From Phycisphaerales bacterium (GTDB lineage Bacteria > Planctomycetota > Phycisphaerae > Phycisphaerales > UBA1924), in assembly GCA_007693785.1 (NCBI GenBank), contig RECY01000038.1:62001-126000 (forward strand): DNA of 64,000 bases, given 5' to 3'. Position numbers and translations under genes: made by a program. Positions 1,108-38,060 of this stretch are shown here, one piece after another. Every line of letters begins with the position of its first letter. Positions within the stretch are counted from its first letter, which is position 1. The notes below the pieces were generated by a model. It saw only the letters and a list, made by a program, of their open reading frames with translations. It did not search any database and was not told the origin of the DNA.

Positions 1108-1208
1108 TCGCCCCGCCGGAGGGATCGGCGCGGTCTGCATCGCGGCTCGCCACGGGGTCCTGCGGTGCGGTTTGACCGGATCGTGCCGGGATCGCCGATA
1201 AACCCGCC

Positions 1209-3020: not shown

Positions 3021-3026
3021 GGCGGG

Positions 3027-3482: not shown

Positions 3483-3554
3483 CCCATCTGGCGTGTGTGT
3501 TCCTCTGTCTCGCAAGACTCAACAGAAAGCGTTGGGAGCGGTTCCAGAGCGGTT

Positions 3555-6394: not shown

Positions 6395-6907
6395 TCAGCT
6401 TTCGTCTGCCGGCATCACCATGTCCGAATAACTCAGCGAGATTGGCTCACCCAGCGCCGGGCCCATCGCTTCCCGGAGGCGTCGGACGGCCGCGTGGCAC
6501 TTGACTACGTTGTTCGTCCGGCTCACCAACGCCTCGAACTCGATGAACCGTCCGAGCCCTTCGACGTCGTCGAGGTGGATCCGCACGTGGTCGGCCGTAT
6601 AGAGCTCCCGCGTCTTGCGGACCACGCACAGCACCGGGAGCGGGCGCGAGCCGAAGCGTTCGATCGCCGTGCGCTCGTCGAAGAGGTCGAAGTGGCTAAG
6701 CCGCGGCTCCAGGCGGTTGATCCGGTCGTAGCGGATCCACTGGTCGGGCTCGCCGACGGTCTCGCGTTTTTTGAGCCGCCCGGTGGGGACGCGGAAGTAG
6801 GTGTCGGTCTGCACGAGCGTGCCGGCGTGCGCGCCGCCGAGGCGAAGGATCGCCGCCCGGGCGATCGCCGGGTCGCGGAGCTCGAGTTTGCATTCGACGT
6901 TGTGCAT
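6395..6907 (-). CDS. CYTH domain protein (class IV adenylate cyclase / triphosphatase family)
   Basis: A 170-residue single-domain protein starting MHNVECKLEL. Members of this family bind triphosphate compounds in a beta-barrel tunnel; some make cAMP, others hydrolyse inorganic or thiamine triphosphate. The N-terminal signature is E-x-E-x-K in the family; here it reads N-V-E-C-K, so the first acidic residue is replaced. Further matches are TDTYFRVPTGRLKKRE, QWIRYDR, VVRKTRELY and VRIHLDDVEGLGRFIEFEA, the last being very typical of the CyaB/class IV branch. It sits upstream of ligA on the same strand's far side (transcribed away from the RHS remnant). Substrate unknown. Confidence 0.85.
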   Translation of the reverse strand: MHNVECKLELRDPAIARAAILRLGGAHAGTLVQTDTYFRVPTGRLKKRETVGEPDQWIRYDRINRLEPRLSHFDLFDERTAIERFGSRPLPVLCVVRKTRELYTADHVRIHLDDVEGLGRFIEFEALVSRTNNVVKCHAAVRRLREAMGPALGEPISLSYSDMVMPADES

Positions 6908-6972
6908 GGGAAGGCACTAGGGACGAGGGATTGGGCAAAAGGTGGCGATTGGGGGGGAGCGTAGCTTAGGGG

Positions 6973-9393
<2,421 letters not shown>

Positions 9394-9424
9394 TTAGGCT
9401 ATCCGGTCAGCCGCCGCACACTGT

Positions 9425-9430
9425 GGGAGG
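9425..9430 (+). promoter_or_regulatory. strong Shine-Dalgarno deciding a TTG start
   Basis: GGGAGG lies 7 bases before TTG 9438, which begins the conserved part of the acyl-CoA ligase. No ATG or GTG is better placed. Confidence 0.7.
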
Positions 9431-9437
9431 ACGTCGC

Positions 9438-11003
9438 TTGAGCATCCACTGGCCGATCATCCGGAACCTCGTCACCCGCCCGCGCCACCCGTTCGTTGCC
9501 GACGACCGTCGGACGTACAAAGGGATCGAGATCCTCGTCGCCGCCCTCCACGTCGCGGGGGAGATCGAGCGCAAGAGCGAGTCCAAGACCGTCGGCGTCA
9601 TGCTCCCCTCCAGCGGGGCGTTCCCGATCGCCGCCCTCGCCGGGTGGATGCTGGGCAAGACCGTCGTCCCCCTGAATTTCCTCCTGAAGCAGTCCGAGCT
9701 GCAGTTCGTTATCGACGACTGCGGGTGCGACACGATCGTCTCGGCCGGGCCGATGCTCGACTACCTGGGCTACGAGCCGAAGGTCAAGACCATCATCCGG
9801 ATGGAGGACCTCAACTTCAAGAGTCTGCCCGATCTGCGCTGGCCCGCCCGCTCAAGCGACGACGATCTCGCGGTCCTGCTCTACACCAGCGGCACCAGCG
9901 GGCTGCCCAAGGGCGTGATGCTCACGCACGGCAACCTCAAGGCCAACGTCCGCCAGTGCACGCAGCACATCAACATCGGCCGCGACGAGGTCTTCTTCGG
10001 CGTGCTCCCGCAGTTCCACTCCTTCGGGCTGACCGTCCTGACGCTCCTGCCGCTGATCACGGGCTCGCGCGTGGTCTACGCCGCCAAGTTTGTGCCGCAG
10101 CAGATCATCGCGGGGTTCAAAAAGCACAAGCCGACGGCCTTCATCGCGATCCCCTCGATGTACAACGCCCTGCTCAGCGCCAAGAACACCCAGCCCGAGG
10201 ACTTCGAGAGCCTCCGCTACATCGTCTCCGGCGGCGAGCCGCTCCCGGACGCGGTCTTCGAAAAGTTCCGCGATCGGTTCGGCGTCACGATCAACGAGGG
10301 CTACGGGCTGACCGAGACGGCCCCGGTCACCAACTGGTGCCGCCCGAATGAGACCCGCCAGCACTCCGTCGGCCCGGCCCTCCCCGAGATCGACCAACGC
10401 ATCATCGACCCCGAAACCGGCAGGCCCCAGCCCGTCGGCGGCGAGGGCGAGGTCCAGATGCGCGGGCCCAACATCATGCAGGGCTACTACAACCGCCCCG
10501 ACGAGACCAAGGCCGTCTTTACCGAGGACGGCTACTTCCGCAGCGGCGACATCGGCAAGCTCGACAGCGAGGGCTTCCTCTTTATCACCGGGCGGCTCAA
10601 AGAGATGCTGATCGTGGGGGGAGAGAACGTCTTCCCGCGCGAGATCGAGGAGGCGCTCGTCCGCCACGAGGCTGTCAAGGCGGCCGGCGTGGTCGGCAAG
10701 ACCGACCCCGTCCGCGGCGAACTTCCCGTGGCGTTCATCGAGCTGGAAGACGATGCCCCGGCGGATTTCGACCCCGACTCGCTCAAGGCCTTCTGCCGCG
10801 ACCTCATCGCCGGGTACAAGGTGCCCCGGGAGATCCACGTGCTGGACGCCCTGCCGCGGAACCCGACGGGCAAAATCCTCCGCCGAGAGCTCAAGGCGAT
10901 CGTGGACGGGAAGAAGGACGCCGCGGGTTCGGCGGGCGATAGACACCCGAAATCGGTCGGGTCTGGCGACGCCGACGAGCGGTACGACGTGGACAAGGCC
11001 TGA
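9438..11003 (+). CDS. AMP-dependent acyl-CoA synthetase/ligase
   Basis: About 521 residues from TTG 9438, chosen for the GGGAGG Shine-Dalgarno 7 bases upstream; the frame extends further upstream only through the repeat region. It belongs to the adenylate-forming ANL superfamily and should activate a carboxylic acid, probably a fatty acid, with ATP and CoA. Visible motifs are the P-loop YTSGTSGLPKG, GYGLTETAP, the hinge region YFRSGDIGKLDSEGFLFITG, and the C-terminal catalytic lysine region PRNPTGKILRREL. The N-terminus is short compared with many long-chain acyl-CoA synthetases. The last ~30 residues are polar and probably disordered. Substrate length cannot be read from sequence alone. Confidence 0.88.
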   Translation: MSIHWPIIRNLVTRPRHPFVADDRRTYKGIEILVAALHVAGEIERKSESKTVGVMLPSSGAFPIAALAGWMLGKTVVPLNFLLKQSELQFVIDDCGCDTIVSAGPMLDYLGYEPKVKTIIRMEDLNFKSLPDLRWPARSSDDDLAVLLYTSGTSGLPKGVMLTHGNLKANVRQCTQHINIGRDEVFFGVLPQFHSFGLTVLTLLPLITGSRVVYAAKFVPQQIIAGFKKHKPTAFIAIPSMYNALLSAKNTQPEDFESLRYIVSGGEPLPDAVFEKFRDRFGVTINEGYGLTETAPVTNWCRPNETRQHSVGPALPEIDQRIIDPETGRPQPVGGEGEVQMRGPNIMQGYYNRPDETKAVFTEDGYFRSGDIGKLDSEGFLFITGRLKEMLIVGGENVFPREIEEALVRHEAVKAAGVVGKTDPVRGELPVAFIELEDDAPADFDPDSLKAFCRDLIAGYKVPREIHVLDALPRNPTGKILRRELKAIVDGKKDAAGSAGDRHPKSVGSGDADERYDVDKA

Positions 11004-11075
11004 ACAACGCTCGTTCTGCGCGCGTTCCCGACCGATACACTCCTGAATCACGGACCCCACCCCCGGAGCGCCCCC

Positions 11076-11720
11076 ATGGACCTGTACATCGACACCGCCA
11101 ACCTCGACGAGATCAAGAAAGCCCACGACATGGGCGTCCTCGACGGCGTCACCACCAACCCCAGCCTCATCGCCAAAGAGGGCATCGACTACACCAAACG
11201 CCTCGCCGAGATCTGCGAGGTCGTCCAAGGCCCGGTGAGCGCCGAGGTCATCGCGGTCGACTACGACGGCATGATCAGCGAGGGACGCGACCGGGCGAAG
11301 ATCGCCGAGAACATTGTCGTGAAGCTCCCCTCGACCGTCGCGGGCGTGAAGGCGTGCAAGACGCTGAGCGACGAGGGGATCCGGACGAACCTGACGCTCT
11401 GCTTCCAGCCGCTGCAGGCGCTGATGGTCGCCAAGGCCGGGGCGTTCCTGGTCAGCCCGTTCATCGGGCGTCTGGACGACATCGGGCAGGACGGCATGGA
11501 CCTGATTCAGCAGATCCGCCAGGTCTACGACAACTACGGGTACCCGACGAAGATTCTCGCCGCCAGTATCCGGCACTCGCAGCACCTGCTCGCGTGCGCC
11601 CTGGTCGGGGCCGACGTCGCGACCGTGCCCTACAGCGTCATCGAGGGCATGATGAAGCACCCCCTCACCGACAGCGGCGTCGAAAAATTCGTGAGCGATT
11701 ACAAAAAAGCCTTCGGCTAA
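11076..11720 (+). CDS. transaldolase / fructose-6-phosphate aldolase family protein
   Basis: A 214-residue member of the short transaldolase (TalC/MipB/FSA) class, which forms a Schiff base with a ketose and cleaves or transfers three-carbon units in the cytoplasm. The N-terminus MDLYIDTANLDEIKKA, the TTNPSLI motif at residues 26-32, and the catalytic lysine K83 in ENIVVKLPST are all in place. The motifs NLTLCFQPLQAL, SPFIGRLDDIG and AASIRHSQHL complete the barrel. Whether it acts as true transaldolase or as fructose-6-phosphate aldolase cannot be decided here. Its stop codon region overlaps the convergent RidA-like gene by 4 bases. Confidence 0.92.
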   Translation: MDLYIDTANLDEIKKAHDMGVLDGVTTNPSLIAKEGIDYTKRLAEICEVVQGPVSAEVIAVDYDGMISEGRDRAKIAENIVVKLPSTVAGVKACKTLSDEGIRTNLTLCFQPLQALMVAKAGAFLVSPFIGRLDDIGQDGMDLIQQIRQVYDNYGYPTKILAASIRHSQHLLACALVGADVATVPYSVIEGMMKHPLTDSGVEKFVSDYKKAFG

Positions 11721-12268
11721 ATCCCCCTCCGCCCGAGTCCCTCGTCCCTATTGCCTAGCGCCTCGTCATCCCCGATCTCAAACACAAACTCCACCTCCAC
11801 CGGCACCCCCAGCGGCAGGCTGCTCGCGCCCACGGCCGCCCGGGCGTGCCGACCTGATTCGCCGAAGATTTCGAGCATCAGGTCGCTCGCGCCGTTGATG
11901 ACCCCCGGGTGCCCGGTGAATTCCGGCGTCGCGGCCACGAACCCCCCGAGGCGGATCACCCCCCGGATCCGGTCCAGCGACCCCACGCCCGCTTTGACGG
12001 CCGCCAGTGCGTTGATCGCGCACAGGCGAGCCAGTTCCTTCGCCCGCTCCGATGAAACATCCGTCGGCACTATTCCTGTTTCGACAGGCTTCCCGCCCAC
12101 GACCGGGATCTGCCCGCTCACGAACGCGAGGTTCCCGACCACCCGCACGGGGACATAGCTCGCCACCGGTTTCGGGGCTTCTGGCAGCTTGATGCCCAGC
12201 TCTTGGAGACGATTTTCCACGTGGTGGGGAAGATTTTCAGGGTTTTCTTTGGCGTGAACTGTGGGCAT
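11717..12268 (-). CDS. RidA/YjgF-family protein
   Basis: A 183-residue protein of the RidA family, whose best-known members hydrolyse reactive enamine/imine intermediates from PLP enzymes. Family features are NLAFVSGQIPVVGGK, ALAAVKAGVGSLDRI and the C-terminal region VGASSLPLGVPVEVEFVFEI; the family arginine near the C-terminus is not at its usual place (the segment reads ARAAVGASSLPLG), so activity may differ. It is longer than the ~128 residues of the archetype, with an extra ~40 residues at the N-terminus and ~18 polar residues at the C-terminus, matching the longer RidA subgroup. Converges with the aldolase gene, overlapping by 4 bases. Confidence 0.88.
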   Translation of the reverse strand: MPTVHAKENPENLPHHVENRLQELGIKLPEAPKPVASYVPVRVVGNLAFVSGQIPVVGGKPVETGIVPTDVSSERAKELARLCAINALAAVKAGVGSLDRIRGVIRLGGFVAATPEFTGHPGVINGASDLMLEIFGESGRHARAAVGASSLPLGVPVEVEFVFEIGDDEALGNRDEGLGRRGI

Positions 12269-12316
12269 GGGGCGTTCTCTCCCGGGTGTTCGGGGCTTTT
12301 CGGGAACCGACTCGCC

Positions 12317-12344
12317 TTGACCGGCGGATCGTTGTGTGTACTTT
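12317..12344 (+). promoter_or_regulatory. possible sigma-70-type promoter upstream of the prepilin gene
   Basis: TTGACC (12317-12322) and TACTTT (12339-12344) are 16 bases apart. If used, the transcript would begin near 12350 and carry a ~270-base structured leader before the prepilin gene. Pattern match only. Confidence 0.4.
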
Positions 12345-12349
12345 ACTGC

Positions 12350-12437
12350 AGCCTGCGCAGGCTTGGGTGAGCGGGCGGAGCCCGTATGTTAAGCCAATGC
12401 CCTGATCGGCGGCCGCAAGCCGCCACCTGATTTCAGG
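12350..12437 (+). repeat. cluster of four palindromes in the 354-base gap before the prepilin gene
   Basis: The gap 12269-12622 has no gene I can support. It holds the perfect palindrome AGCCTGC/GCAGGCT (12350-12363), GCGGGC-GGA-GCCCGT (12371-12385), GGCGGC-CGCAA-GCCGCC (12408-12424) followed by ACC, and CCTGA-TT-T-CAGG-type stem (12426-12437). The third has the same stem-then-CCACC layout as the other intergenic repeats of this window. No T-tract follows, so these are not typical terminators. Confidence 0.55.
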
Positions 12438-12622
12438 GGTTCTCCGCTCACCGACATCCCGACGCCGACCCGCCCGCGTGCGACCACGCGCGGGACCCGT
12501 CGGCGGCTCCCCGGTCGATGCGTCGCCCGGGTGATGATCCGAGATGGGCGTGTGCCCGTCCGGCGGTGTCGAATATTTTGCCGAGGCGTGGTCAGCCGCG
12601 GCACAGTTTGGAGAACTGACTC

Positions 12623-26911: not shown

Positions 26912-27916
26912 ATGGCCACGAGCTCCACGCCACCACGCGCGGCTCCCATACAGGGCGGCCTCACCGACTCGGGGGCGGAAGCCGATCCCGGGGAGGGGCT
27001 GTTGAGCGAGCGTTGGACCCGTTTTGTGAAACGAGGGGTGGTTGCGGGGCTCGGGGTTTCGCTGATGGTTCACCTCGTGCTGATGCTCGCGGCGGCGTTG
27101 ATCGTGTTCCAACGCGTGGACGGCAGCCTCGGCGGCCCGCCGGGTCTGGACGAGGTCGATTTTGCGGTGATGACCGACGCGGAGCTCCGGGAGCTCGGGG
27201 TGACGTCGCTGCCGAGCACGACGCCGCCGGTCCCGGACTTGGTCGAGCGGGAGACGGTCGAGGTCGAACTGCTGAGCCTCGCGCCCGAGGCGTTGAGCGG
27301 GCTCTCGCCGGAGCTTGGCGAGCTGGCGATGGATTCGGGGGCGGGGGATATCGCGGGCGGGCTCGGGGCCGCGGGTGGGATGGCGGGCGACGCGGGGACG
27401 GCGAGTTTCTTCGGCGTTGAAGCGGTGGGTCGACGATTCGCGTTCATCGTGGACCGCTCGGGCTCGATGAATATCGCGGGGCGGTGGCCGACGCTGCAGG
27501 AGAAGCTGCTTGAGGCGATCAACGGGCTCTCGCCGAACGCGCAATTTTTCGTGGTGCTGTTCAGTTCCGACGCGATGGCGATGAGCGGGCGAACGACCTG
27601 GACGGACGCCTCGCAGGCGGGCAAGACCTGGGGGCGTCGCGAGATCGGGAACCTGCCGATACCTTCTGGCGGGACGGTGCCGTCGCCGGGGTTCGAGATG
27701 GTGCTCCGCGTCCGCCCTCGTCCGGACGCGATCTATTTCATGACCGACGGCGAGTTCGCCGAGAGTCAGGCCCACGAGATCATCCGCATGGTTGCCGAGC
27801 TTGGCATCCCGGTGCACTGCATCACGTTCGCGAGCGACGAGGGGCGCGTGCAGATGGAGATGATCGCCCGCGCCACGGGGGGCTCGTACACGCACGTGCC
27901 GGGGCGTGTCCCGTGA
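26912..27916 (+). CDS. VWA-domain protein with TonB-like N-terminal membrane anchor
   Basis: A 334-residue protein from ATG 26912, preceded by GGAAGG. Residues 1-40 are polar; residues 42-66 form one membrane helix containing S50-L-M-V-H54, the S-x3-H spacing seen in TonB/TolA anchors that contact ExbB/ExbD. A Pro/Glu-rich linker runs to about residue 165. The VWA domain begins FFGVEAVGRRFAFIVDRSGSM with a full MIDAS motif (D181-x-S183-x-S185), and continues with FVVLFSSDAMAM, SGGTVPSPGFEM and YFMTDGEF. The domain should bind a metal ion and a protein ligand in the periplasm. First of eight overlapping genes with ExbB and two ExbD; the TonB analogy is inference. Confidence 0.85.
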   Translation: MATSSTPPRAAPIQGGLTDSGAEADPGEGLLSERWTRFVKRGVVAGLGVSLMVHLVLMLAAALIVFQRVDGSLGGPPGLDEVDFAVMTDAELRELGVTSLPSTTPPVPDLVERETVEVELLSLAPEALSGLSPELGELAMDSGAGDIAGGLGAAGGMAGDAGTASFFGVEAVGRRFAFIVDRSGSMNIAGRWPTLQEKLLEAINGLSPNAQFFVVLFSSDAMAMSGRTTWTDASQAGKTWGRREIGNLPIPSGGTVPSPGFEMVLRVRPRPDAIYFMTDGEFAESQAHEIIRMVAELGIPVHCITFASDEGRVQMEMIARATGGSYTHVPGRVP

Positions 27917-29169
27917 GGCCGGCGCACCGGTGGTGGATGGTCGCGTCCGTTGGGGTGGCGGCTGCCGGAGCGGGCTCGCTCGCGGTAGCGCGCGACGACG
28001 AGCCGGCCCGAGCTCCGAACGGGGCGTCGGATGGGGCGTCGGAGGCCGAGCCCGCACGCGGGGGCGACGTCCTCGAACTCCGCGGCGGGAGCGAACGCCT
28101 GGAAGGCGAAATCCTGGACATCGGGCCCGAGGGCGTGCGGATCCTGGTGAACGGCCAGGCAATTCCTTCCTGGGTCGGGTGGGATCGTGTCCGCCGCGTG
28201 CACGGGGCGATGGCGAGCGAGGCGGAGGCGTACGCCGAGGTCGCCGACACGGCCTGGCGCGCCCGGACGCGTCTGGAGCGTGGCGACGCGGCGTCGGCTG
28301 AGCCGCTGTTCGAATCGTTGTTCGCGCGATACGCGGGCGGCGAGGGGCCGACAGCTCGCGTGGTTGCCGAGGGGCTGCTCCGCTGCCGCCTGCGTCGCAA
28401 CGCGTACGCGTCGGCTGTGGAGGCGTGGGTGGCGGCTCAGCTCGCGGGCGTGGTCGGCTTTGATCCGTCGGCTGCGGCGGTGCAGGGGGAGGGGCTCGCG
28501 CTCCGCCTCGTGCCGGCCCTGCCGCCGATCTGGACCGATGCGCCGGGCGTCCGCCCGCTCGCGTCCGGGCGACTGCTGCTCGGCGAGCCTCGGGAGGCGG
28601 GCGACGGCGAGCCGGCGACGGGGGGCGCGGGCATCGGGCTCACAACGCGCGCGTTGGCGGCCTGGTACCGGGCGGCGGCGGCGCACGAGGCGGGCGTGCC
28701 GATCGATCACGACGAGCTCCGCGCCGCGCGTGCGTCGTCGGACCCGGAGGTCACGTTCGTTCGCGCGGTGGTGGAGTCGCGGATCGGGGACGGGGATGTC
28801 CGCGCCGGGGCGCGGGCGCTGCTGGAGGTGTACATCGAGGCGGGCGTGCCTCGGTGGGCCGAGGCGTGGGCACGGGCGGCGATCGGGCGTTCGCTGCTGA
28901 TGGAAGACGAGCATGAGTACCGACTGCTGGGTGTGGCGGAACTGATGCACATGCCGGCGCGCCTGCGCGATGCGCAGCCGTACCTCGCGGGGCTGGGTCT
29001 GGCCGAGTCCGCGGCGGCGTTGGACTCGATGGGTCAGCACGCCGAAGCGGACCGCGTCCGGGCCGAGTTCCGGCGCAACTTTCCCGGTCACCCGCTGCTT
29101 GCGTCCTCGTCCGCGACGGGGCGCCGGGTCGGGACGGGTTCGGGCGGATCAACCGAAGGAGCCGATTGA
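27913..29169 (+). CDS. exported helical-repeat protein of the VWA/Exb operon
   Basis: A 418-residue protein starting at GTG 27913, which overlaps the VWA stop codon by 4 bases. A signal-like segment WWMVASVGVAAAGAGSLAVA near residues 7-26 predicts export. After an acidic linker there is a small beta region (DVLELRGGSERLEGEILDIG ... ILVNGQAIPSWVGWDRVRRV), suggesting an LSM/SH3-like fold, then about 300 residues of Ala-rich helices arranged like TPR or SEL1-type repeats. No known family recognised. It probably scaffolds the complex in the periplasm. Confidence 0.7.
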   Translation: MRPAHRWWMVASVGVAAAGAGSLAVARDDEPARAPNGASDGASEAEPARGGDVLELRGGSERLEGEILDIGPEGVRILVNGQAIPSWVGWDRVRRVHGAMASEAEAYAEVADTAWRARTRLERGDAASAEPLFESLFARYAGGEGPTARVVAEGLLRCRLRRNAYASAVEAWVAAQLAGVVGFDPSAAAVQGEGLALRLVPALPPIWTDAPGVRPLASGRLLLGEPREAGDGEPATGGAGIGLTTRALAAWYRAAAAHEAGVPIDHDELRAARASSDPEVTFVRAVVESRIGDGDVRAGARALLEVYIEAGVPRWAEAWARAAIGRSLLMEDEHEYRLLGVAELMHMPARLRDAQPYLAGLGLAESAAALDSMGQHAEADRVRAEFRRNFPGHPLLASSSATGRRVGTGSGGSTEGAD

Positions 29170-29922
29170 ATGCCAGATGTGTTGCACACGCTCGCCGCCG
29201 CGACCGGGAACGCCGGTTCGATGTCGCTGCTGGACTACATCCTCGCGGGTCGCGAGATCGGGCTGGTGATCATCCTGCTCTCGTTCGTCGCGTTAGGGCT
29301 GGTGGTCGCGGCGTTGATCCGTCTGCGTCTGTCGCGTCTCGCGCCGCCGGAGACGATCGACGAGCTGGACCGGATGCTGCGGGCCGGCGAGATCGGTCGC
29401 GCGGTGGAGCTGTGCAACAGCTCGGTGCACGATTCGTTCCTGACGCGCACGTTCGGGCCGGCGCTGGTCCGCTGTGCGCGCTCGCCCTTCGGTTTTTTGG
29501 AGCTGAAGAGCGCGCTGGAGGAATCGGGCCAGCAGGAAGTCGGTCGTTTGCAGCGCTGGACAGATTATCTGGGGCTGATCGCGACGGTCGCGCCGATGCT
29601 CGGGCTGCTCGGCACGGTGTTCGGGATCCTCGTGGCGTTCGACGCGATCAGCCAGACCGAGGGCGTGCCGCGTCCGGGTGAGCTGGCGGGGGGGATCAGT
29701 CAGGCGCTGGTGACGACGGTCATGGGGCTGATCGTCGCGATCCCGACGACGTTCGCGTACACGTATTTGCGGAACCGGATCGACGACCTGGCGCAGGACG
29801 TGGCGCGGATCTGCGAGGAACTGGCGGTCCACCTCGAGCAGGCCGGTGGCGGCTCGTCTCAGCCCCCGGCTGGCGCCCGCCCGCGTCCGCGTCCGTCCCC
29901 GGCGGAGGGAGCGCGGGCGTGA
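29170..29922 (+). CDS. MotA/TolQ/ExbB proton channel family protein
   Basis: A 250-residue inner membrane protein with the three-helix ExbB/TolQ plan: helix 1 near residues 33-57 (GLVIILLSFVALGLVVAALI), a cytoplasmic loop with the conserved LIATVAPMLGLLGTVFGILV segment forming helix 2 around residue 137-160, and helix 3 in ALVTTVMGLIVAIPTTFAY near residue 180. The GLLGTV motif and Thr residues lining the proton path are present. With ExbD partners it would use the proton gradient to move a periplasmic partner. ATG follows the preceding stop directly, and its end overlaps the first ExbD gene (GTGA). C-terminal ~30 residues are Pro/Gly/Arg-rich. Confidence 0.93.
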   Translation: MPDVLHTLAAATGNAGSMSLLDYILAGREIGLVIILLSFVALGLVVAALIRLRLSRLAPPETIDELDRMLRAGEIGRAVELCNSSVHDSFLTRTFGPALVRCARSPFGFLELKSALEESGQQEVGRLQRWTDYLGLIATVAPMLGLLGTVFGILVAFDAISQTEGVPRPGELAGGISQALVTTVMGLIVAIPTTFAYTYLRNRIDDLAQDVARICEELAVHLEQAGGGSSQPPAGARPRPRPSPAEGARA

Positions 29923-30359
29923 ACTTCGCGAAGACGGGCGAGCGCCGCACGGGGCGGTTCAACATGACGCCGATGATCGACGTCGTGCTGCAGCTCATCA
30001 TCTTTTTCATGTACACGTCCACGTTCGCGAGCATGGTGCGCACGCCGGTAGACCTGCCCAAACAGCTCGGCGAGCGGGAGCTGAGCCGCGACAGCGCGCC
30101 GATCGTGGTGGACATCACGCACGACGGGCGCGTGCTGGTCGCGGGGGTCGAGAGCGACCTGGCGGAGCTGCGCCGGATTGTGCGGGCCGAGGGAGAAGAG
30201 CGCCACGGCGGCGACATGGGGCAGGTCAAGGTGCTCGTCCGGGCCGACCGCGGCGCCGAGGCGCGGCACGTGAACGTGGTCGTGCGCACGCTGACAGGCG
30301 CTGGCGTGCGCCGGTGGACGACCGGCTCGGAAAGCGTCGGCGAGACGGGGGGGAACTGA
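29919..30359 (+). CDS. ExbD/TolR biopolymer transport protein (first copy)
   Basis: A 146-residue protein from GTG 29919, overlapping the ExbB gene by 4 bases. The single N-terminal membrane helix reads NMTPMIDVVLQLIIFFMYTS, with the conserved proton-carrying Asp in M-I-D. The periplasmic domain follows (PVDLPKQLG, APIVVDITHDGRVLVAGV, VLVRADRGAEARHV), matching the ExbD/TolR beta-alpha fold. A GRFNMTP arginine precedes the helix as in family members. Together with the second ExbD it would pair with the ExbB pentamer. Confidence 0.92.
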   Translation: MNFAKTGERRTGRFNMTPMIDVVLQLIIFFMYTSTFASMVRTPVDLPKQLGERELSRDSAPIVVDITHDGRVLVAGVESDLAELRRIVRAEGEERHGGDMGQVKVLVRADRGAEARHVNVVVRTLTGAGVRRWTTGSESVGETGGN

Positions 30360-30360
30360 G

Positions 30361-30774
30361 ATGCGGTTCCGCCCCAAACACCGCCCTGTCGGCATCCCCT
30401 CGGACCTGCCGATGACGAGCATGATCGACGTGGTGTTTTTGCTGCTGATTTTCTTTATGATCACCGCGACGTTCGTGCGCGAGCGCGAGCTCCGCTCGAC
30501 GCTGGACGCCGTTCGGGAGGGTGCGGGCAGCGCGGCGGACCTTTCGCCGCAGATTGTGGAGGTCGAGCTGCGCAACGGGCGCTCGGCCTACCGGATCGGG
30601 GCGCGAATCATGCGCACGCAGGAGGAGCTATTCGGCGTGCTCACGGAACTGCCCAAGGAGGGCGGTGTGTTTATCCGGGTCCACGGGGACGCGCCTTGGG
30701 GTGCGGCGGCCGGCGCGTTGCAGGCCGCGCAGGACGCGGGGTTTTTGAAGCGAACATATGTGCCCGCAGATTGA
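30361..30774 (+). CDS. ExbD/TolR biopolymer transport protein (second copy)
   Basis: A 137-residue protein starting one base after the first ExbD stop. Its helix reads MTSMIDVVFLLLIFFMITAT, again with the key Asp, and the periplasmic part contains VEVELRNGRSAYRIG, GGVFIRVHGDAPWGA and AGALQAAQDAGF, the typical ExbD end. The two copies are clearly different from each other in the periplasmic domain, which fits a heterodimeric ExbD pair as known in some Exb and Tol systems. Its 3' end overlaps the next gene by 17 bases. Confidence 0.92.
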   Translation: MRFRPKHRPVGIPSDLPMTSMIDVVFLLLIFFMITATFVRERELRSTLDAVREGAGSAADLSPQIVEVELRNGRSAYRIGARIMRTQEELFGVLTELPKEGGVFIRVHGDAPWGAAAGALQAAQDAGFLKRTYVPAD

Positions 30775-33493
30775 ACCAACCTACGCCCGTCGCCTCGGCG
30801 TGCTGTGCGCTCTCGCGGGCGCGGTGTGCGCCACGGGCGTCGCGCACGCACTGGCTCAGGGCGCCACGGGCCAGGTCGTCGCGAACGCCGACGCGGACGC
30901 ATCGGTGGACGGGTATCTCGATGCGCTCGGGCTCGAGGCGGTGCGTGCCGCGACGCTGCGGGCCCGGCTCGAGCGTGCGCCCGCGGAGGAGCGCGTCGCG
31001 ATCGCCGAATCGCTCGGCGGGATCTACGTCGGCATGCTCGAACGCGCCACGACGACCGAGTCCAGGCTGGTCGTGGAAGGGCTCGCGACGGACCTGATGC
31101 GCCGCTTCCCGGGGGCCGAGACGAGCGAGCTCCGCGTGAATCTTCAGCGTGTGCAGTATCTGACGGCCGAGCGCCTCGCGGAGCTGCACCGCCTGCGGCT
31201 GGCGACGCCCTCCGAGGTCGCCGAGGCCGAACGCATTCTCCGCCGGAGCATCCCGGTATTCCGCGAGGTGGCAATGGCGGCCCACCGCCGCGTGGAAGTG
31301 TACGAACGGCGTGATGTGCGGACCGACCTGCCCGACGACATGCGCGCGATGCTGGACGAGTCGCGCCGGATCCGCTCGCTGGCGATGTATTACGCGGGGT
31401 GGAGCCGCTACTACCTCGCGTACATCATCGACGATCGGGGCGGTGCGGACGAAGCGATGGACGCGTTCGGCTGGTTGCTGAACGCGCCGGGCGGGCGGGG
31501 CGCGACGCTGGACCGTCTGCCGCAGGGCATGACGCGGTACGAGCACGTCGCGCGGGCGGCGGTGGGCGTCGCGATGAGCGAGTCGCTGCGCGGGCAGGAC
31601 GTCACGGCGATCCGCTGGCTGGACGCGCTGGCTTCCGGCGCCGAGACGCCGCAGAGCGTCCGCGACGCGTTGCTGGCGCGCCGGATCGCGGTGCTGAGCG
31701 CGGGCGGGCGCTGGTACGACCTGAAGGCGTTGATCGACCGTCTCCCGACGCGCCCGGACAGCTTCCGCCTGACGGTGCCGGAGGCCCGCCTGCTCGCGGT
31801 GTCGGCGTTCGAGGGCCTCGGGCGCATGGGCGATCGCAGCGCGAGCGCGGGCGACGCGGTGCTGATCGAGGCGATCGGGCAGGTCGGCCTCGGCGAGCTG
31901 GTGCGGCGCGGGGAGGTCTCGCACGTGCTCGATATGGTCGAGCGGTACGGGGCCGAGCTGATCGGCGAGGACGGGTTCGTCGTTCGATTCGTCGATGGCT
32001 TGCAGTCGTACGAGCGTGCGAGGGCGTTGCACGCGGACGCGGATGAGCCGACGGGTGAGCCGACGTCAACGCGCGATGTGGCGAGCGCGTTTCTGGTCGC
32101 GTCGCGCGCCCTGGGCGCGGCGCTGGAATCCGAGGACGCGGATCTGTTCCCCGCGCAACGCGCCGAGTGCCGGCGTCTGCGCGGGCTGAGCCTCTACTTC
32201 GCGGGCGAGCTCCGTGAAGCGGCGAGGCTGCTCGCGGCCGCGGCGTCCGTCTCCGGCGGCGACGAGACCGAGGCGCAGCGGGAGGAGGCTCTCTGGTTCG
32301 CGATCGTGGCCCTCGACCGTGCGATCCGCGCCGGCGATCGGGGCGCGACCGCCGAGCGCGACCGGCTGGCGACGCTCTATCTCGCGTCGTTCCCCGGCAC
32401 GGAGCGGTCGGCACGCCTGCTCATCGGCGCCCCCGGAGACCGCGTGGATCCGCAGCGGGCTGTGGAGGTGCTCCTGTCGATCGGCCCTTCCTCAGAAGTG
32501 TATGAGGCCGCGCGTCGGCGCGCATCCCAACTCCTGTACCGTCTGTATCGCGAGAGCTCCGGTGCGGAACGTGCGTTCGCGGCGTCCCGCTTCACCGATA
32601 TCGCCAGCGAGATCTTCGCCGCGGACGTGCGTGCGAGCGAGACGGTTCGCGACGAGCCCGAAGCGGAGCGCGCCACGCGCGACGCCGTGCAGGTGGCGCG
32701 GCAGATGTTGGACGTGCTCCTGGGCCCGGAAGTCTCGGACGCGATCCGGGCCGAGGAGGTCCTGGTGTCGGTGCGCGAGCTTGCCCGCCTCCGCGGCGGC
32801 GTCCCGCGCGAGATCGAGGCCGAACTGGCCTACCGGGCGTTGCAGTCGGCCGTGGTGCGGGATCATGCAGACCTGATCCGCGATCGGGCCTCGGCGTTGC
32901 GTGCCTTCGGCGGTGCGTTCGCTTCGGCCGGCGACCGCTTGCTGTACAACCGAGCGGTGGCTCGCGCAGCCGAGCGGCCGAACGATCTTCAGGTGTTGCG
33001 CGAGATCGTCAACGCCGGGGTGCGGATCGCCGAAGAACTGCGCCGCGCGCCGGGCGGGCTGTCGGACGCGGCGACGCTCGGCGTGCACGACCGCGTGGCG
33101 GACGCGGCGGCCCGTTTGTGGGCGGGCGAGGACGACGAAGCCGCACGCGAGATCGCGATCGAGCTCGACCGGCGCGCCATCGACGCCGGGCAGGCGACGG
33201 TGCGGATGCTCCGCCGCGCAGGTGAGCTGCGCGAGTCGGCGGGCGACCTACGCGGCGCGCACGACGCGTGGCGGACACTGATGGCCGGCACGACGCCCGG
33301 CGAGGATCTCTGGTTCGAAGCACGGTACGAGTCGCTGCGCCTGCTGGTGCGGCTCGACGCCGAGCGTGCGCGGGCGGCGCTGGCGCAGCACCGGGTGCTC
33401 CACCCCGAGTGGGGCCCGGAGCCGTGGGGCGAGCGTTTGCGCGTGCTGCACGAACGCCACGCGAGCGAGGCCGCGGATGGGATCGAGCCGTGA
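30758..33493 (+). CDS. large exported helical-repeat protein of the VWA/Exb operon
   Basis: A 911-residue protein starting at ATG 30758 inside the ExbD frame end. Residues 10-33 (ARRLGVLCALAGAVCATGVAHALA) form a signal peptide with a likely cut after ALA, so it should be periplasmic. The rest is nearly all alpha helix, rich in Ala, Arg, Glu and Leu, with recurring LxxLA...YFAGELREAARLLAAAA-like stretches that suggest many TPR-like repeats. Cysteines are very few. I recognise no named domain. It could be the long periplasmic partner bridging the inner membrane motor and another layer; that is inferred from context. Confidence 0.75.
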   Translation: MCPQIEPTYARRLGVLCALAGAVCATGVAHALAQGATGQVVANADADASVDGYLDALGLEAVRAATLRARLERAPAEERVAIAESLGGIYVGMLERATTTESRLVVEGLATDLMRRFPGAETSELRVNLQRVQYLTAERLAELHRLRLATPSEVAEAERILRRSIPVFREVAMAAHRRVEVYERRDVRTDLPDDMRAMLDESRRIRSLAMYYAGWSRYYLAYIIDDRGGADEAMDAFGWLLNAPGGRGATLDRLPQGMTRYEHVARAAVGVAMSESLRGQDVTAIRWLDALASGAETPQSVRDALLARRIAVLSAGGRWYDLKALIDRLPTRPDSFRLTVPEARLLAVSAFEGLGRMGDRSASAGDAVLIEAIGQVGLGELVRRGEVSHVLDMVERYGAELIGEDGFVVRFVDGLQSYERARALHADADEPTGEPTSTRDVASAFLVASRALGAALESEDADLFPAQRAECRRLRGLSLYFAGELREAARLLAAAASVSGGDETEAQREEALWFAIVALDRAIRAGDRGATAERDRLATLYLASFPGTERSARLLIGAPGDRVDPQRAVEVLLSIGPSSEVYEAARRRASQLLYRLYRESSGAERAFAASRFTDIASEIFAADVRASETVRDEPEAERATRDAVQVARQMLDVLLGPEVSDAIRAEEVLVSVRELARLRGGVPREIEAELAYRALQSAVVRDHADLIRDRASALRAFGGAFASAGDRLLYNRAVARAAERPNDLQVLREIVNAGVRIAEELRRAPGGLSDAATLGVHDRVADAAARLWAGEDDEAAREIAIELDRRAIDAGQATVRMLRRAGELRESAGDLRGAHDAWRTLMAGTTPGEDLWFEARYESLRLLVRLDAERARAALAQHRVLHPEWGPEPWGERLRVLHERHASEAADGIEP

Positions 33494-36489
33494 GCCACGC
33501 ACCCGTTTCACCTGTGCAGCGTTTCCTGGGCCCGCCCGAAGCGTCGGGCGGTGCGCTCGCGCTGTTGAGTCTCGATCCGGCTTCTGTGGACGAGCGTGCG
33601 GTCTTCCGCGCGCTCAACGCGCAACTCGCAAGAGTATCGGCTCACCCGGAGCGCGACACGCCGGCGGCCGACGAGGTGCGCCTCGCGCTCCACGCCGCCG
33701 CGGCGCAGCTCCTCGATCCCGCCGTGCGTGCGTTGATTATCGCCCGTGCGCGCGGCGGGCGTACGCCGTCGGGCGACGGGGCACGCCCCACACCGAGCCG
33801 CAGCCCCGCGCCCCAGCCCGGACGCTCGGAAACCGCTGTAACCGCGGGCCGGACGCCCTCCCGCGACGACGGAGCGATCGCGGCTTTCGAGCACGACGCA
33901 CTGCGGTTGCTTGCGAGGCATGGCGGCTGGGGACCGCAGTCGATGCGTCAGATCGCCCAGTTCGCCCACGCTCGCGGCGTGCCGCCTTCGCGTGTCGTCG
34001 CAGGGTTGCACGCGATGCTCCGCGGCGGCAGCACCCACGCGAACGCGGGCAAACCCGCCATCGGCTCCTCGCCCTTGCCCGTACGCACAAACGGTGCGCA
34101 CACACACCCGTCCGCGTTCACCGATCAGGTGGTCTCGGCTTCGACCGCGCAGGCGGTTTCCGAACCGGTGTTCAGCTCGACGGCGACGCTGTCCACTGTC
34201 GGTGCCCGCGCTCGGCAATCGCGGCAGACACGGGAGGCGCTCGATCCCACCACGGTGCGCACGCTCTGGTTCGCCGGCGGGATGTTGGTGGTCTTTGCCG
34301 GGCTGTTGCTCCTGGTGTTCATCGGGATTCATGCGGCGAGCGGCGGTTTCGGCGCTGGCGGGGGCGCGGGTCCCGGCGCAGGGGTTCAAGCGCAAGCACC
34401 GCCCCCGCCGACGGGTTCCGGTGCGGCGGCTTCGCCAGATGCCGAGCCCACGCGCGACCGAAGCCTGGATGCCGAGCGTGTTCGCACCGATCAGCCCGCA
34501 CGCGAGGCCCGCACCGACTCCCCCGCACCCCCCGTCGATCCCGCGCGTCTCGTCCGCGATCTTCAAGCAGCGGTCGCCCAGCTCGACGACGACGCTCCTG
34601 CGGCCTCCGCTCGCTTCGCGTCGCTCGTGGATGCGCTCGCGCGACGCTGGACGCTGCTCAGCGCGAGCGAACGCGCGGCGGCGCACGACGCCGTGGTGGA
34701 GTTCGTGTACCGCTCGGCGGACTCGCCCGTAGCGATCGCGGGCGCGATCCGCGCGATCGCCCGACCCGCGTCGGCCTACGCCAGTTCCGACGCCCCGCCC
34801 GCGCCGGGCGAGGTCCATCCGACGATCTGGTCCGTCGGCGTGCTCGCCCGCCTGAGCCGCGAGCGTGACCTGCCCGCCAGCGCCAGGTCCGAGATCGAAC
34901 GCACCCTTGCGCGTGCGCTCGGCGACCGCGGGCTCACGGGCGAACGCGTCTTTGTGGATGCGTCGATCGACGCGCTCCGCGCGGTCGCCGAGCGTCTCGC
35001 AACCCGCGGCGGCGGTGCCCGCGCGTGGGACACATGGCTCCAGGCGGCCCACGCGCTCGCGGGCGAAGACCCGGCGCGTCGTACCGCGTTGATCATTCGC
35101 GGGCTCGACGTGCTGCTGGAGCGAGGGCCGCAGCCGAGCGAATCGCCCGAAATATTCGCGGCGATCGCTGCGCTCGTCGGTGATCTCCCGTGGCGTGAAC
35201 GCGACGCGACGCGGGCGTGGCTCGTCGGGCGTTTCGATGACCCGAGGATCACGATCGGCGCTCTGCACGCGCTGACGATGGCGCTCGTGAGGCATTCTTC
35301 GGCCGAGGGCGTGGACCTGACCATGGTCGTGCGGCGTCGGGATACCGAAGCCGAGCGCCGGGCGATGCGCGACCGCTACGCCGAAGCGTGGGGGATTGAT
35401 GCGCCAGCCGGCGGGGGCGCGTGGGCCGCGGCGTGGGGCACAACGCTGCGGCGCGCGTCGGACGCCGATGCGCGACACGCCTCGGCGTGGCTCCGTCGCG
35501 CGGTGGTGGTCAGCATGCTCAACGAGTCCGCGGCCCTGGCGTGGTCGGGCGACAGCGCCGGGGCCGACAGCGCGCTGACCGAGGCCGAGGCTTTTCTGAA
35601 CACGCGATCCGCTGCCACCGGCTCCGGACGGGCGGCGCGCCTGATTGAACACGCGCCGGCCGACGGATGGTGGTCGCGATACCTCCGCGCCGGCGCGAGC
35701 GTGCCCGCGCGCCTCGATCTGTTGCGCGATCTCGGGCATCGCGGCCCGGCGAACATCTATCGCCAGGACGCGACCGTCCTTGTGCGCGAGGCGCTCCGTG
35801 GCTCGCCGGCCCAGGTTCGCGAGACCGCGATGCAGACCATGCGACGGCTCACCGCCAGCCCGGCCGTGGTCAACGCCCTGCTCGACGAACTCCCACGTCT
35901 GCCCGACACCCGGGGCACGCGCGAGCTGATTGCGAGCGTCGCCTATGCCAGCACGAACCCGCGAGAGGGCGAGCCTTGGCACCATCATGCCCGGCGTTCG
36001 CTGGTCGCCCGCCTGCTCGAGATGACGGCGAGCGCGGGCGAGTTGTCGGCAGTGGACGACCTCGCCGATCGACTCGCGATGTCGTACGCGCGTCGCGCGG
36101 CCAACCCCGGCGCGAGCGAGTCCGACGCGGTGGCGGCTGGTGTCAGCGCCGCGTCGATCCGCGTCCGTCTGGAGCAGGCCGCTTCGGCGTTGCCCCCCGG
36201 GGCGCGTGTCCCGATCACCCTCGAAGAGATCGAGCGACGGCGATCGTCTCGCGCGAGCCTGGCGCACGGCTCGGTGCAGCGTTTCTGCGTCGAGCAGCTC
36301 GCGGTCTGCGAGCTGCTCGCGTACATCGTTGTGGTCGAGCGCCCGCGTGAAGCCGGGCGTGTGACGGGCGTGCTGGACACGCTCGCGCGGGAGCGGCGCG
36401 AGGCCGATCACGTGTTCGCGCAGATCGCGGCGGCGGAACGTGCCATCGCGAGCCTCTGGCGGATCCGATTCGGAGAACAGGACGCATGA
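33490..36489 (+). CDS. 999-residue single-pass membrane protein of the VWA/Exb operon
   Basis: From GTG 33490 (overlap of 4 with the preceding stop) the protein has about 250 N-terminal residues with a helical domain (residues ~25-80, ALALLSLDPASVDERAVFRA) and a second helical region after residue ~125, separated by disordered Pro/Ser/Arg linker. One membrane helix lies near residues 258-282 (FAGGMLVVFAGLLLLVFIGI). Beyond it a Gly/Pro-rich linker leads to about 650 residues of helical-repeat-like sequence. The charge pattern suggests a cytoplasmic N-terminus and a periplasmic C-terminus. It would link cytoplasm and periplasm in the machine. No family recognised. Confidence 0.72.
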   Translation: MSHAPVSPVQRFLGPPEASGGALALLSLDPASVDERAVFRALNAQLARVSAHPERDTPAADEVRLALHAAAAQLLDPAVRALIIARARGGRTPSGDGARPTPSRSPAPQPGRSETAVTAGRTPSRDDGAIAAFEHDALRLLARHGGWGPQSMRQIAQFAHARGVPPSRVVAGLHAMLRGGSTHANAGKPAIGSSPLPVRTNGAHTHPSAFTDQVVSASTAQAVSEPVFSSTATLSTVGARARQSRQTREALDPTTVRTLWFAGGMLVVFAGLLLLVFIGIHAASGGFGAGGGAGPGAGVQAQAPPPPTGSGAAASPDAEPTRDRSLDAERVRTDQPAREARTDSPAPPVDPARLVRDLQAAVAQLDDDAPAASARFASLVDALARRWTLLSASERAAAHDAVVEFVYRSADSPVAIAGAIRAIARPASAYASSDAPPAPGEVHPTIWSVGVLARLSRERDLPASARSEIERTLARALGDRGLTGERVFVDASIDALRAVAERLATRGGGARAWDTWLQAAHALAGEDPARRTALIIRGLDVLLERGPQPSESPEIFAAIAALVGDLPWRERDATRAWLVGRFDDPRITIGALHALTMALVRHSSAEGVDLTMVVRRRDTEAERRAMRDRYAEAWGIDAPAGGGAWAAAWGTTLRRASDADARHASAWLRRAVVVSMLNESAALAWSGDSAGADSALTEAEAFLNTRSAATGSGRAARLIEHAPADGWWSRYLRAGASVPARLDLLRDLGHRGPANIYRQDATVLVREALRGSPAQVRETAMQTMRRLTASPAVVNALLDELPRLPDTRGTRELIASVAYASTNPREGEPWHHHARRSLVARLLEMTASAGELSAVDDLADRLAMSYARRAANPGASESDAVAAGVSAASIRVRLEQAASALPPGARVPITLEEIERRRSSRASLAHGSVQRFCVEQLAVCELLAYIVVVERPREAGRVTGVLDTLARERREADHVFAQIAAAERAIASLWRIRFGEQDA

Positions 36490-37565
36490 TCCGGCGCACT
36501 CGCTCATGGAAGCTCGCCCTCGCGACGCTTGCCGCATGTTTTGCGGCGCCGCTGTTCGCTCAGGACGGCGGCGCCGGCCGACCGGAGTCTCTGGAAGCCC
36601 CGCCGGTCGAGGGGTCGTCGCTGCCCGGGGCCGTGCCGAGGGTGGAGCGCGAGCCCGAAGCCGTCATCGCGTCGCGCCTGGAGGCGCTGCATCCGGATCG
36701 CCCAGTGGAATATTTTCTGCTGGCGGAAGAAGTCGCGGACATCGCGATCGGGCCGCGGAGCGCGCAGCTCGCGCAGCGGCTGTACGTGCTGGCGTTCGAG
36801 CTGGCGCTGGCCGCGGGCGACCGTCCGACCGCCTCCAGCGCGGTGCTCGGGCTCGGGGCGACGACGCGACTGGACGAACGCCGACGCACACTCGCCGCGC
36901 TCGCGCGGAGCATCGACCCGCGTCACGCCCGTCCCAATTGGTCGCCGGCGATCGACAGCGTTTCGGACGGCAAGACGGCGTACGACGCGGCGACCGCCCT
37001 CGGGCTCGTCCGATCCGGCTATGGGCGAGCGGGGATGCGTCTGCTGCGCGAGCCCGGCGTCCGCCCGCTCCTGGTCGCTTTCGACGCCCTGCTCAGCCCG
37101 GTCGGCGCGACGGGCGCGTTCGCCGAGGTGGAGCGTCAGGCGCCGATGTGGCCCTGTCCCGAGTGCGCCAACGAGCTTGTCGTCCCCGTGCCGGGCTCGC
37201 GCCCGCCGGACCGGCGCGCGTGCTCGACCTGCCTCGGCGCGCCCGGGCCCCGTCTTTCGCACGAGGCGTTCCTAGGGCATCTTCGCCTTGAGCTGCGCCT
37301 GCTCGACGGGATCGGTCGATCCTGGGCGGCTCAGGTCGCGAGCGATCGCGGTGCGCCGCTGCTGGATCCGGAAGCCGACGAGGTCGCCCCGATGTTCGGC
37401 ATCGACCCCTCGCGGACGATTTTTCGAGACGGGCAGTGGATTCGCCCGCAGCCGAGCCCCGACGCGGAGCCCGCACCGCCCGCCGCTCCCGAGCCAGACT
37501 CCGAACCTAACCCGCAGCCCGCTTCGGGCGGCGGCGCATCGGGCGGGACCAGCGCCGGGAGCTGA
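36486..37565 (+). CDS. exported Cys-pair protein, last gene of the VWA/Exb operon
   Basis: A 359-residue protein whose ATG overlaps the previous stop (ATGA). The start MIRRTRSWKLALATLAACFA and APLFAQDGG give a clear Sec signal peptide with cleavage after FAQ or similar. Residues ~50-215 are helical. Two Cys pairs, CPECANE and CSTCLG (about residues 222-247), form a treble-clef or zinc-ribbon-like unit, unusual for an exported protein. The C-terminal ~55 residues are Pro/Glu/Gly/Ser-rich and disordered. No known family. No further gene follows closely. Confidence 0.75.
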   Translation: MIRRTRSWKLALATLAACFAAPLFAQDGGAGRPESLEAPPVEGSSLPGAVPRVEREPEAVIASRLEALHPDRPVEYFLLAEEVADIAIGPRSAQLAQRLYVLAFELALAAGDRPTASSAVLGLGATTRLDERRRTLAALARSIDPRHARPNWSPAIDSVSDGKTAYDAATALGLVRSGYGRAGMRLLREPGVRPLLVAFDALLSPVGATGAFAEVERQAPMWPCPECANELVVPVPGSRPPDRRACSTCLGAPGPRLSHEAFLGHLRLELRLLDGIGRSWAAQVASDRGAPLLDPEADEVAPMFGIDPSRTIFRDGQWIRPQPSPDAEPAPPAAPEPDSEPNPQPASGGGASGGTSAGS

Positions 37566-37691: not shown

Positions 37692-38060
37692 ATGGCGGAC
37701 GACACCGGCGGCAAGGCGACGATCGCGTTCGAGGATTTTGCCAAGATCGACCTACGCGTGGCGCGGATCGTGCAGGCCGAGCCGCACCCCAACGCCGACC
37801 GGTTGCTCAAGCTCCAGCTCGACGACGGCTCGGGCGAGCCGCGTCAGATCTGCGCCGGCGTCAAGGCGTTCTACGAGCCGGAGCAGCTCGTTGGCAAGCT
37901 CATCGTGATCGTCGCGAACCTGGAACCTCGCGAGATCCGCGGCGAGCAGAGCCGCGGGATGCTGCTCGCCGCCAGCGACGCCGCCAAGGGCGAGGGCGAC
38001 CGCAACGTGGTGCTGCTCTCACCGATGAGCGACATCGCGCCCGGCTCGGTCGTGAGCTGA
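37692..38060 (+). CDS. stand-alone tRNA-binding domain protein (MetG C-terminal / CsaA-like)
   Basis: A 122-residue protein made of one EMAP-II/OB-fold tRNA-binding domain like the C-terminal domain of methionyl-tRNA synthetase. The signature is FAKIDLRVARIVQAEPHPNA then DRLLKLQLDDG, ICAGV, LVGKLIVIVANLEPREIRG and SRGMLLAA. Stand-alone relatives include Trbp111 (tRNA-binding) and CsaA (chaperone-like). N-terminal methionyl-tRNA synthetase catalytic domain is absent, so the gene either supplies this domain in trans or has its own role. Confidence 0.88.
   Translation: MADDTGGKATIAFEDFAKIDLRVARIVQAEPHPNADRLLKLQLDDGSGEPRQICAGVKAFYEPEQLVGKLIVIVANLEPREIRGEQSRGMLLAASDAAKGEGDRNVVLLSPMSDIAPGSVVS

Follow-up and report, generated by a model that had tools for sequence, protein, structure and literature searches.

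What does an ExbB-ExbD motor pull on when its operon carries neither TonB nor TolA? Ton and Tol-Pal are the textbook routes by which proton energy reaches the outer membrane, and Planctomycetota are noted for unusual envelopes. The question is raised by an eight-gene operon of a Phycisphaerales bacterium (assembly GCA_007693785.1, contig RECY01000038.1, positions 62,001 to 126,000 of the forward strand). These 64,000 nucleotides, on contig 29 of a 3.06-Mb assembly that is 95% complete, are called the window here, and all coordinates are given within it. The operon combines a VWA-domain protein, an ExbB-ExbD-ExbD motor and large helical proteins, and in our judgement it probably encodes a machine of the Ton/Tol type, driven by protons and exerting force across the envelope through a VWA arm. 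Its features are as follows (aa, amino acids).

26912-27916, + strand: gene 1, VWA protein, 334 aa, the proposed force transducer replacing TonB/TolA; short cytoplasmic N-terminus, one membrane helix, linker and VWA domain (Pfam VWA_3, 5.6e-7; 21-row alignment)
27059-27073, + strand: S50-x3-H54, putative motor-docking motif in the VWA membrane helix (alignment conservation)
27155-27175, + strand: D-box-like strand V82-D83-F84-A85-V86-M87-T88, after the VWA membrane helix (pattern compared with the TonB D-box as given in excerpts of PMC10907165)
27452-27466, + strand: metal site (MIDAS) residues D181, S183 and S185 of the VWA protein, with T255 and D279 further on (invariant in the 21-row alignment)
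27913-29169, + strand: gene 2, P2, 418-aa exported protein; signal peptide (by eye), small beta-like N-terminal part, then helical repeats (TPR_14 in a distant protein at the homologous position)
29170-29922, + strand: gene 3, ExbB/TolQ-type proton channel subunit (Pfam MotA_ExbB, 5.2e-29; own clade in the ExbB tree)
29919-30359, + strand: gene 4, ExbD/TolR-type subunit 1 (Pfam ExbD, 2.5e-17)
30361-30774, + strand: gene 5, ExbD/TolR-type subunit 2, of a distinct family (Pfam ExbD, 1.6e-15)
30758-33493, + strand: gene 6, P6, 911-aa exported alpha-solenoid, TPR-like (AlphaFold2 model, Foldseek)
33490-36489, + strand: gene 7, P7, 999-aa single-pass membrane protein; cytoplasmic J-like domain, membrane helix, periplasmic helical region (helix prediction, model, profile matches)
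33511-33750, + strand: J-like domain of P7, residues 8-87, with HPE in place of HPD (model and J-domain profile matches)
34246-34341, + strand: membrane helix of P7, residues 253-284 (helix prediction, model)
36486-37565, + strand: gene 8, P8, 359-aa exported protein with a zinc-ribbon-like motif of two CxxC (CxxC pairs in orthologues)
37155-37232, + strand: CxxC...CxxC motif of P8, residues 224-249 (sequence, orthologue scan)

The eight genes lie on one strand from 26912 to 37565 and each overlaps or abuts the next, as an earlier sequence-only reading of the locus had described; we verified all coordinates and the seven junctions on the sequence. GTGA overlaps join VWA to P2 (27913-27916), ExbB to ExbD1 (29919-29922) and P6 to P7 (33490-33493), and P7 and P8 share ATGA (36486-36489). 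ExbD2 and P6 overlap by 17 bases (30758-30774), the TGA of P2 is followed directly by the ATG of ExbB (29167-29172), and the two ExbD genes meet as TGA-G-ATG (30357-30363). That reading had also assigned an ExbB and two ExbD proteins with the proton-path Asp. Pfam agrees, and the Asp is present in 24 of 24 ExbD1 rows and 23 of 24 ExbD2 rows, the remaining row being a gap at a start site chosen by script. The Thr residues of ExbB, one each in transmembrane helices TM2 and TM3, are kept in 25 of 25 rows. The large proteins had been said to belong to no recognised family, and the Pfam scan gave no match for those of 418, 911 and 999 aa and only sub-threshold noise for that of 359 aa. They had also been said to be exported; this holds for P2, P6 and P8, which have signal-peptide-like N-termini (by eye), but not for P7, where exactly one membrane helix, an internal one, is predicted in 29 of 29 sequences, the window's included.

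The VWA protein is the likely equivalent of TonB or TolA, to judge from its sequence features: a single membrane helix bearing a conserved S-x3-H, a D-box-like strand beyond it, and finally a VWA domain that has MIDAS residues. When 21 VWA proteins are aligned, no column ahead of residue 143 is invariant apart from S50 and H54. Among rows of the window's family with a readable N-terminus, H54 is found in 74 of 74 and S50 in 73 of 74, the exception being Thr. Ser16 and His20 of TonB, at the same spacing, are called essential in the title of a reference cited in the excerpts of PMC10907165. In a control of 62 loci outside the family, 20 helix-bearing VWA proteins had an ExbB gene no more than 3.5 kb away, and all 20 have S-x3-H in or next to the helix; the figure is 9 of 17 where no ExbB was seen. 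The strand V-D-F-A-V-M-T (V82-T88) follows H54 at a distance of about 28 residues. According to the same excerpts, the TonB D-box alternates hydrophobic and hydrophilic residues, ends in two hydrophobic and one hydrophilic residue, is flanked by prolines and is held by an ExbD dimer; V82-T88 matches the alternation except for Ala at position 4, and 46 of the 54 rows whose operon includes the motor show the strict pattern. Across the 21 rows D181, S183, S185, T255 and D279 do not vary, DxSxS is present in 75 of 75 rows, and a PDB profile search with the VWA protein matched VWA chains (best 2.5e-9). At two loci of family f5 (L063, L064) a tandem pair of VWA genes precedes the motor genes; S-x3-H is found in both, and the pair may represent two transducers that share a motor.

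The operon holds no TonB, TolA, TolB or Pal gene, a statement of the sequence-only reading that is borne out and can be widened to the genome for two domains. TonB_C (PF03544) had no match in the operon, nor at E ≤ 0.1 in the assembly, and TolB_N (PF04052) had none at E ≤ 0.1 in the assembly. Pfam gave no TolA domain match in the operon. There is no Pal gene in the operon either; OmpA-family domains occur at three places elsewhere in the genome, so the genome may have a Pal-like protein. The best NCBIfam matches of the motor genes are tolQ and tolR, far under the curated cut-offs, and in the ExbB tree the operon's subunit stands in a separate group. The genome has three further MotA/ExbB loci: one followed after half a kilobase by an OmpA-type domain, which by position is probably MotAB, an ExbB-ExbD-ExbD set on contig 8, and an ExbB on contig 32. 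Longest-open-reading-frame gene calls around these other motors are unreliable in such G+C-rich DNA and were used only for the set on contig 8. Zorya (ZorAB) was considered and rejected: ExbB has only 250 aa, its best PADLOC ZorA match is 23.7 bits over 75 residues, and the ExbD proteins had no PADLOC match. The ZorA matches of ExbB reflect general MotA/ExbB kinship.

Operons of this kind are already known as a prediction. PMC12204202 (Mol Biol Evol 2025), in the excerpts available, predicts vWA force transducers in the PVC group (Planctomycetes, Verrucomicrobia, Chlamydiae), encoded with tolQ, two different tolR and a TPR gene. These transducers are described as having an S-H-L-S helix, a motor box in the linker and a VWA end domain; Planctomycetes are among the hosts, the function is given there as unknown, and AlphaFold3 models put the helix of the vWA protein on the motor through the conserved His. 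Our operon shares with that system the Ser/His membrane helix, the motor-box strand and the C-terminal VWA domain, together with adjacent tolQ-like, paired tolR-like and TPR genes; this likeness, to the Tichowtungia vWA family, is drawn from described features and not from sequence comparison. It differs in that the VWA gene comes first here and after the motor genes there, and in adding the exported helical P2, the J-like P7 and the zinc-ribbon-like P8, which the excerpts leave unmentioned. What we add is P2, P7 and P8, near-universal conservation in the family, and motor loss accompanied by D-box change. Within the literature searched, only PMC12204202 combines vWA, TolQ, TolR and a force transducer; a passage search of PMC12505986 gave nothing relevant.

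Other comparisons are looser. With the Ton system, as excerpted in PMC10907165, the operon shares proton-path motor residues, Ser-x3-His in the transducer helix and a D-box-like strand after it; it differs in its two different ExbD proteins, VWA head and giant helical partners, and in the lack of a TonB C-terminal domain in operon and genome. With TolQ-TolR-TolA-TolB-Pal it shares the best NCBIfam matches, a plausible housekeeping role and co-encoded TPR proteins, as with CpoB, but it has no TolA or TolB_N domain and no Pal. PflA and PflB of the Campylobacter and Helicobacter flagellar motors are, in the excerpts at hand, likewise large periplasmic helical-repeat proteins around a proton-driven motor. 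A PflA/PflB chain (9hmf_K) ranked 19 in the P6 fold search (E 2.1e-5) with a TM-score of only 0.21–0.23, for which we claim no shared specific fold, and the operon has no flagellar genes.

Conservation of the gene order had been set beforehand as the point on which the sequence-only reading could be refuted, and the set proved to be conserved. Of 61 relatives, 59 gave a VWA match, the weak ones among these being other VWA proteins. We fetched 37 regions around the match: all eight genes are present in order in 22, and five have genes 1-2-6-7-8 only. Three run into the end of their contig, one after genes 1-7, and seven, from families f5 and f6, lack genes 2, 6, 7 and 8 by profiles, VWA still standing with ExbB and ExbD genes in four of these seven. 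The complete set belongs to families f1 to f4 of the order, and the loci with the same operon located by VWA alignment are metagenome-assembled genomes of Phycisphaerales. Where the order recurs, P6 is just 26–45% identical to that of the window, so the recurrence is beyond chance. P6 was found in 144 of 150 family genomes and in 106 of the 107 that are at least 90% complete, which suggests a housekeeping role.

In a sample of the class (198 genomes) P6 matched strongly in 11 of 11 family members, and none of the 11 f5/f6 genomes listed had it; matches in the rest of the class were weak and partial. In a sample of the phylum (199 genomes) one genome outside the class, G354, has a full-length P6 match (1.6e-83), and at its locus (L182) each of the eight genes can be recognised, gene 7 by a short matching stretch alone. 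A reduced core, in which VWA is followed by ExbB-ExbD-ExbD and a P6-like gene, is found at L119, L127, L130, L132, L186, L193 and L194, and ExbB-ExbD-ExbD with a P6-like gene at L190 and L196; P6 E-values in these smaller-core loci are 7e-4 to 5e-13. Between VWA and ExbB at L186 and L132 there is an exported protein that corresponds to P2 in size and position. The order of the cassette is itself fluid: at L209 (G007, 782-4349) the motor genes come directly before the VWA gene rather than after P2.

Some operons have no motor genes. VWA and P6 share a contig and strand in 124 family genomes. The distance between the two genes is 2,646–3,643 bases in 102 and 1,124–1,409 bases in the other 22, which belong to 15 genera; there are no intermediate sizes. 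Where the genes were read (five and three loci), the short gap holds P2 only, and the motor is lacking in 22 of the 124 operons. Nine of these 22 genomes have an ExbB elsewhere that scores 233–290 bits with the operon profile, compared with 322–378 bits for six in-operon controls; their status as relocated motors is by bit score, with tree support for G012 only, whose ExbB falls in the operon's group. In the other 13, no operon-type ExbB was found, the best profile score being 133 or less. Seven duplicate rows (L105, L106, L107, L109, L111, L112, L113; for example L106 = G513, L112 = G506 and L113 = G162) were dropped before the S-x3-H and A85 counts in the family given here. A motor in the operon was read from the VWA-P6 gap for L271-L273 and L275-L294 and directly from the genes for the others.

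The two putative motor contacts of the VWA protein behave differently. All 12 motor-lost rows keep S-x3-H, as do all 8 relocated rows that are readable. In the D-box-like strand, A85 is present in every one of the 54 rows whose operon includes the motor (the window's among them, a few classed by gap size alone) and in all 8 readable rows with a relocated motor, thus in 62 of 62 with an operon-type motor, versus 3 of 12 motor-lost rows. Of those three, two may be false losses: G511 (89% complete, with motor-bearing sister genomes) and G488. The D-box of G495 (79% complete) was not scorable. The A85 pattern fits a D-box that would read its cognate ExbD, and in our reading the strand changed once freed from its own ExbD pair. 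In motor-less genomes the VWA helix probably still docks on some ExbB, that of a second motor. Second motors were seen in G004, G014, G018 and G029 and also in G012, all with operons that lack the motor, and these would serve the VWA protein. If so, repeated loss or relocation of the motor is a natural experiment on how transducers match motors, the docking Ser/His constant and the D-box varying with ExbD, a question that likewise concerns Ton and Tol.

How often the motor was lost was counted on a P6 tree, used in place of a VWA tree that was too poorly resolved. The 12 motor-lost rows require five changes, four of them forced by supported branches, and a single clade for 11 of the rows was rejected (approximately unbiased test, p-AU 0.004). 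The tree is a quick LG tree with two long-branch joins flagged, and the one-clade test was run after the tree had been seen. The motor-keeping rows L069 and L206 fall inside the main lost group, so that either losses were repeated or the P6 tree is wrong there.

P6 gave an AlphaFold2 model (pLDDT 87.0, pTM 0.64) of an all-helical solenoid with some forty helices, whose best PDB matches by Foldseek are TPR-type solenoid proteins (E 3e-7, TM-scores below 0.3). Fold matches of P6 and P7 are to generic solenoids (TM-scores about 0.1–0.25), and we claim no specific kin. The TPR nature of P6 is drawn from this fold and from Pfam matches of distant homologues, not from a Pfam match of P6 itself: TPR matches are over threshold in the distant P6-like protein of L185, and Pfam TPR_14 is above cut-off in the protein at the P2 position of L132 (11133-12143). 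The L185 protein (G410, 9447-12074), an 875-aa P6-like TPR protein, has no motor detected in 19 kb, so P6-like proteins also occur apart from this system. A PADLOC Cas6 match on P6 (E 6e-4) was rejected, as P6 models as an all-helical solenoid.

P7 begins with a J-like part. A nine-row profile of its N-terminal 87 residues matched DnaJ-type chains in 27 of 33 PDB matches at E ≤ 10 (best 0.0021), and this part models as three helices. The HPD motif of J-domains reads HPE in the window and is not conserved in the nine-row alignment. Beyond the J-like part the model (weak as a whole: pLDDT 73.4, pTM 0.38) consists of helices, at moderate confidence. At L183 (G376, 6669-12526) a P6-like gene adjoins a gene for a 1116-aa protein with a J-like N-terminus, and no motor gene was detected in 12.6 kb. 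The two CxxC pairs of P8 are present in 25 of 28 orthologues scanned, the window's included.

Gene order, conservation, motifs, topology and predicted folds are direct results, and from them we infer a complex, its pulling action, its partners and its function. ExbB and the two different ExbD proteins would form the inner-membrane motor, and the VWA protein would be the force transducer, its membrane helix docking on ExbB via S-x3-H and its D-box-like strand, just outside the membrane, being caught by the periplasmic domains of the ExbD pair. Driven by proton flow, the motor would tug on the strand, and the pull would reach the VWA head, which may grip a partner through its metal site. Likely partners are the periplasmic helical P2 and P6 and the membrane solenoid P7; they could transmit or withstand the force that acts between the two membranes and the cell wall, or P6 and P7 may serve as a scaffold. 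P8 would be an accessory. Housekeeping upkeep of the envelope, comparable to Tol-Pal, is the probable role, because the set is near universal in the family and TonB_C and TolB_N matches are lacking. If this is right, a near-universal operon with VWA in place of TonB/TolA is the planctomycetes' own machine, with P2, P6, P7 and P8 as its probable partners, which earlier work, in the excerpts, does not name. The lineage-specific envelope machine of the sequence-only reading thus stands as a lineage-wide, motor-driven set with no Ton/Tol partner in its operon; as a kind it is not new, having been predicted in the excerpts of PMC12204202.

Several observations weigh against such a machine. Thirteen genomes keep the rest of the operon with no operon-type motor found, so that the motor is dispensable there or replaced. 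In the control outside the family, S-x3-H was present as well in 9 of the 17 VWA proteins that have a membrane helix but no ExbB seen nearby (some at contig ends); L059 (G058) has Asn instead of its His, and the motif is missing at L062 (G053), where no motor was seen close by. Of the S-H-L-S motif the window has only S and H, with A61 and V65 at the L and S positions. The fourth position of its D-box-like strand is Ala, not a hydrophilic residue, and no proline directly follows. The link between D-box and motor loss comes down to four independent pairs on supported branches, about three as expected and none opposite (sign test, p 0.25), short of significance because independent events are too few.

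The motor-less operons allow another view, in which VWA, P2, P6, P7 and P8 form a motor-independent periplasmic assembly or quality-control complex and ExbB-ExbD-ExbD is an interchangeable accessory. The 22 operons of 124 that lack the motor, the four or more losses or moves that supported branches require even when only the lost rows are counted, the 13 genomes with no operon-type ExbB elsewhere and the J-like domain of P7 all speak for it. We nevertheless consider it unlikely: S-x3-H in all 12 readable motor-less VWA proteins is hard to explain without docking on some ExbB, all five motor-less genomes so examined have other ExbB-ExbD-ExbD sets, and the core pairing of VWA and motor recurs far beyond the family. 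Adhesion, which the sequence-only reading had suggested, fits the near-universal presence in the family less well than housekeeping does. A machine for gliding, adhesion or surface display, whose motor moves VWA adhesion heads along helical tracks, has in its favour that VWA domains are adhesion modules, that the excerpts of PMC12204202 raise gliding as a possibility, and that the genome's flagellar-type MotA/OmpA pair (paired by position) is separate. A P6 gene in 106 of 107 good family genomes suits a niche trait poorly, the VWA head is predicted at the inner membrane and not outside, and the operon has no surface anchor or outer-membrane protein; we regard this explanation as improbable. 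Bat operons likewise combine VWA and TPR proteins, so the locus could be a Bat-like stress (aerotolerance) operon in which these proteins act together and the motor is coincidental. No MoxR, BatD or DUF58 gene was seen between the eight genes, and the motor belongs to the conserved core; we rate a Bat-like role as very improbable.

The proton-driven machine with a VWA arm can be extended much further, to a conjecture we hold only tentatively and think doubtful as a whole. It would be the general envelope-tension machine of Planctomycetota, replacing both Ton and Tol-Pal. Its motor would pull a gripping VWA head against a pair of exported helical cables and against a J-like solenoid, which spans the membrane and would report to the cytoplasm as well. 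The transducer would have two plugs, S-x3-H for ExbB and the D-box for ExbD, and lineages would repeatedly have dropped the dedicated motor and re-plugged into a second one, rewriting the D-box only.

Two minor observations concern neighbouring genes. An isochorismatase-like hydrolase gene, recognised by a look at the sequence, lies near the P6-like gene at L127 (16837-17406), L132 (16802-17386) and L199 (8958-9542). In the window, 3' of the operon and on the same strand, a small open reading frame at 37692-38060 resembles a tRNA-binding domain by eye.

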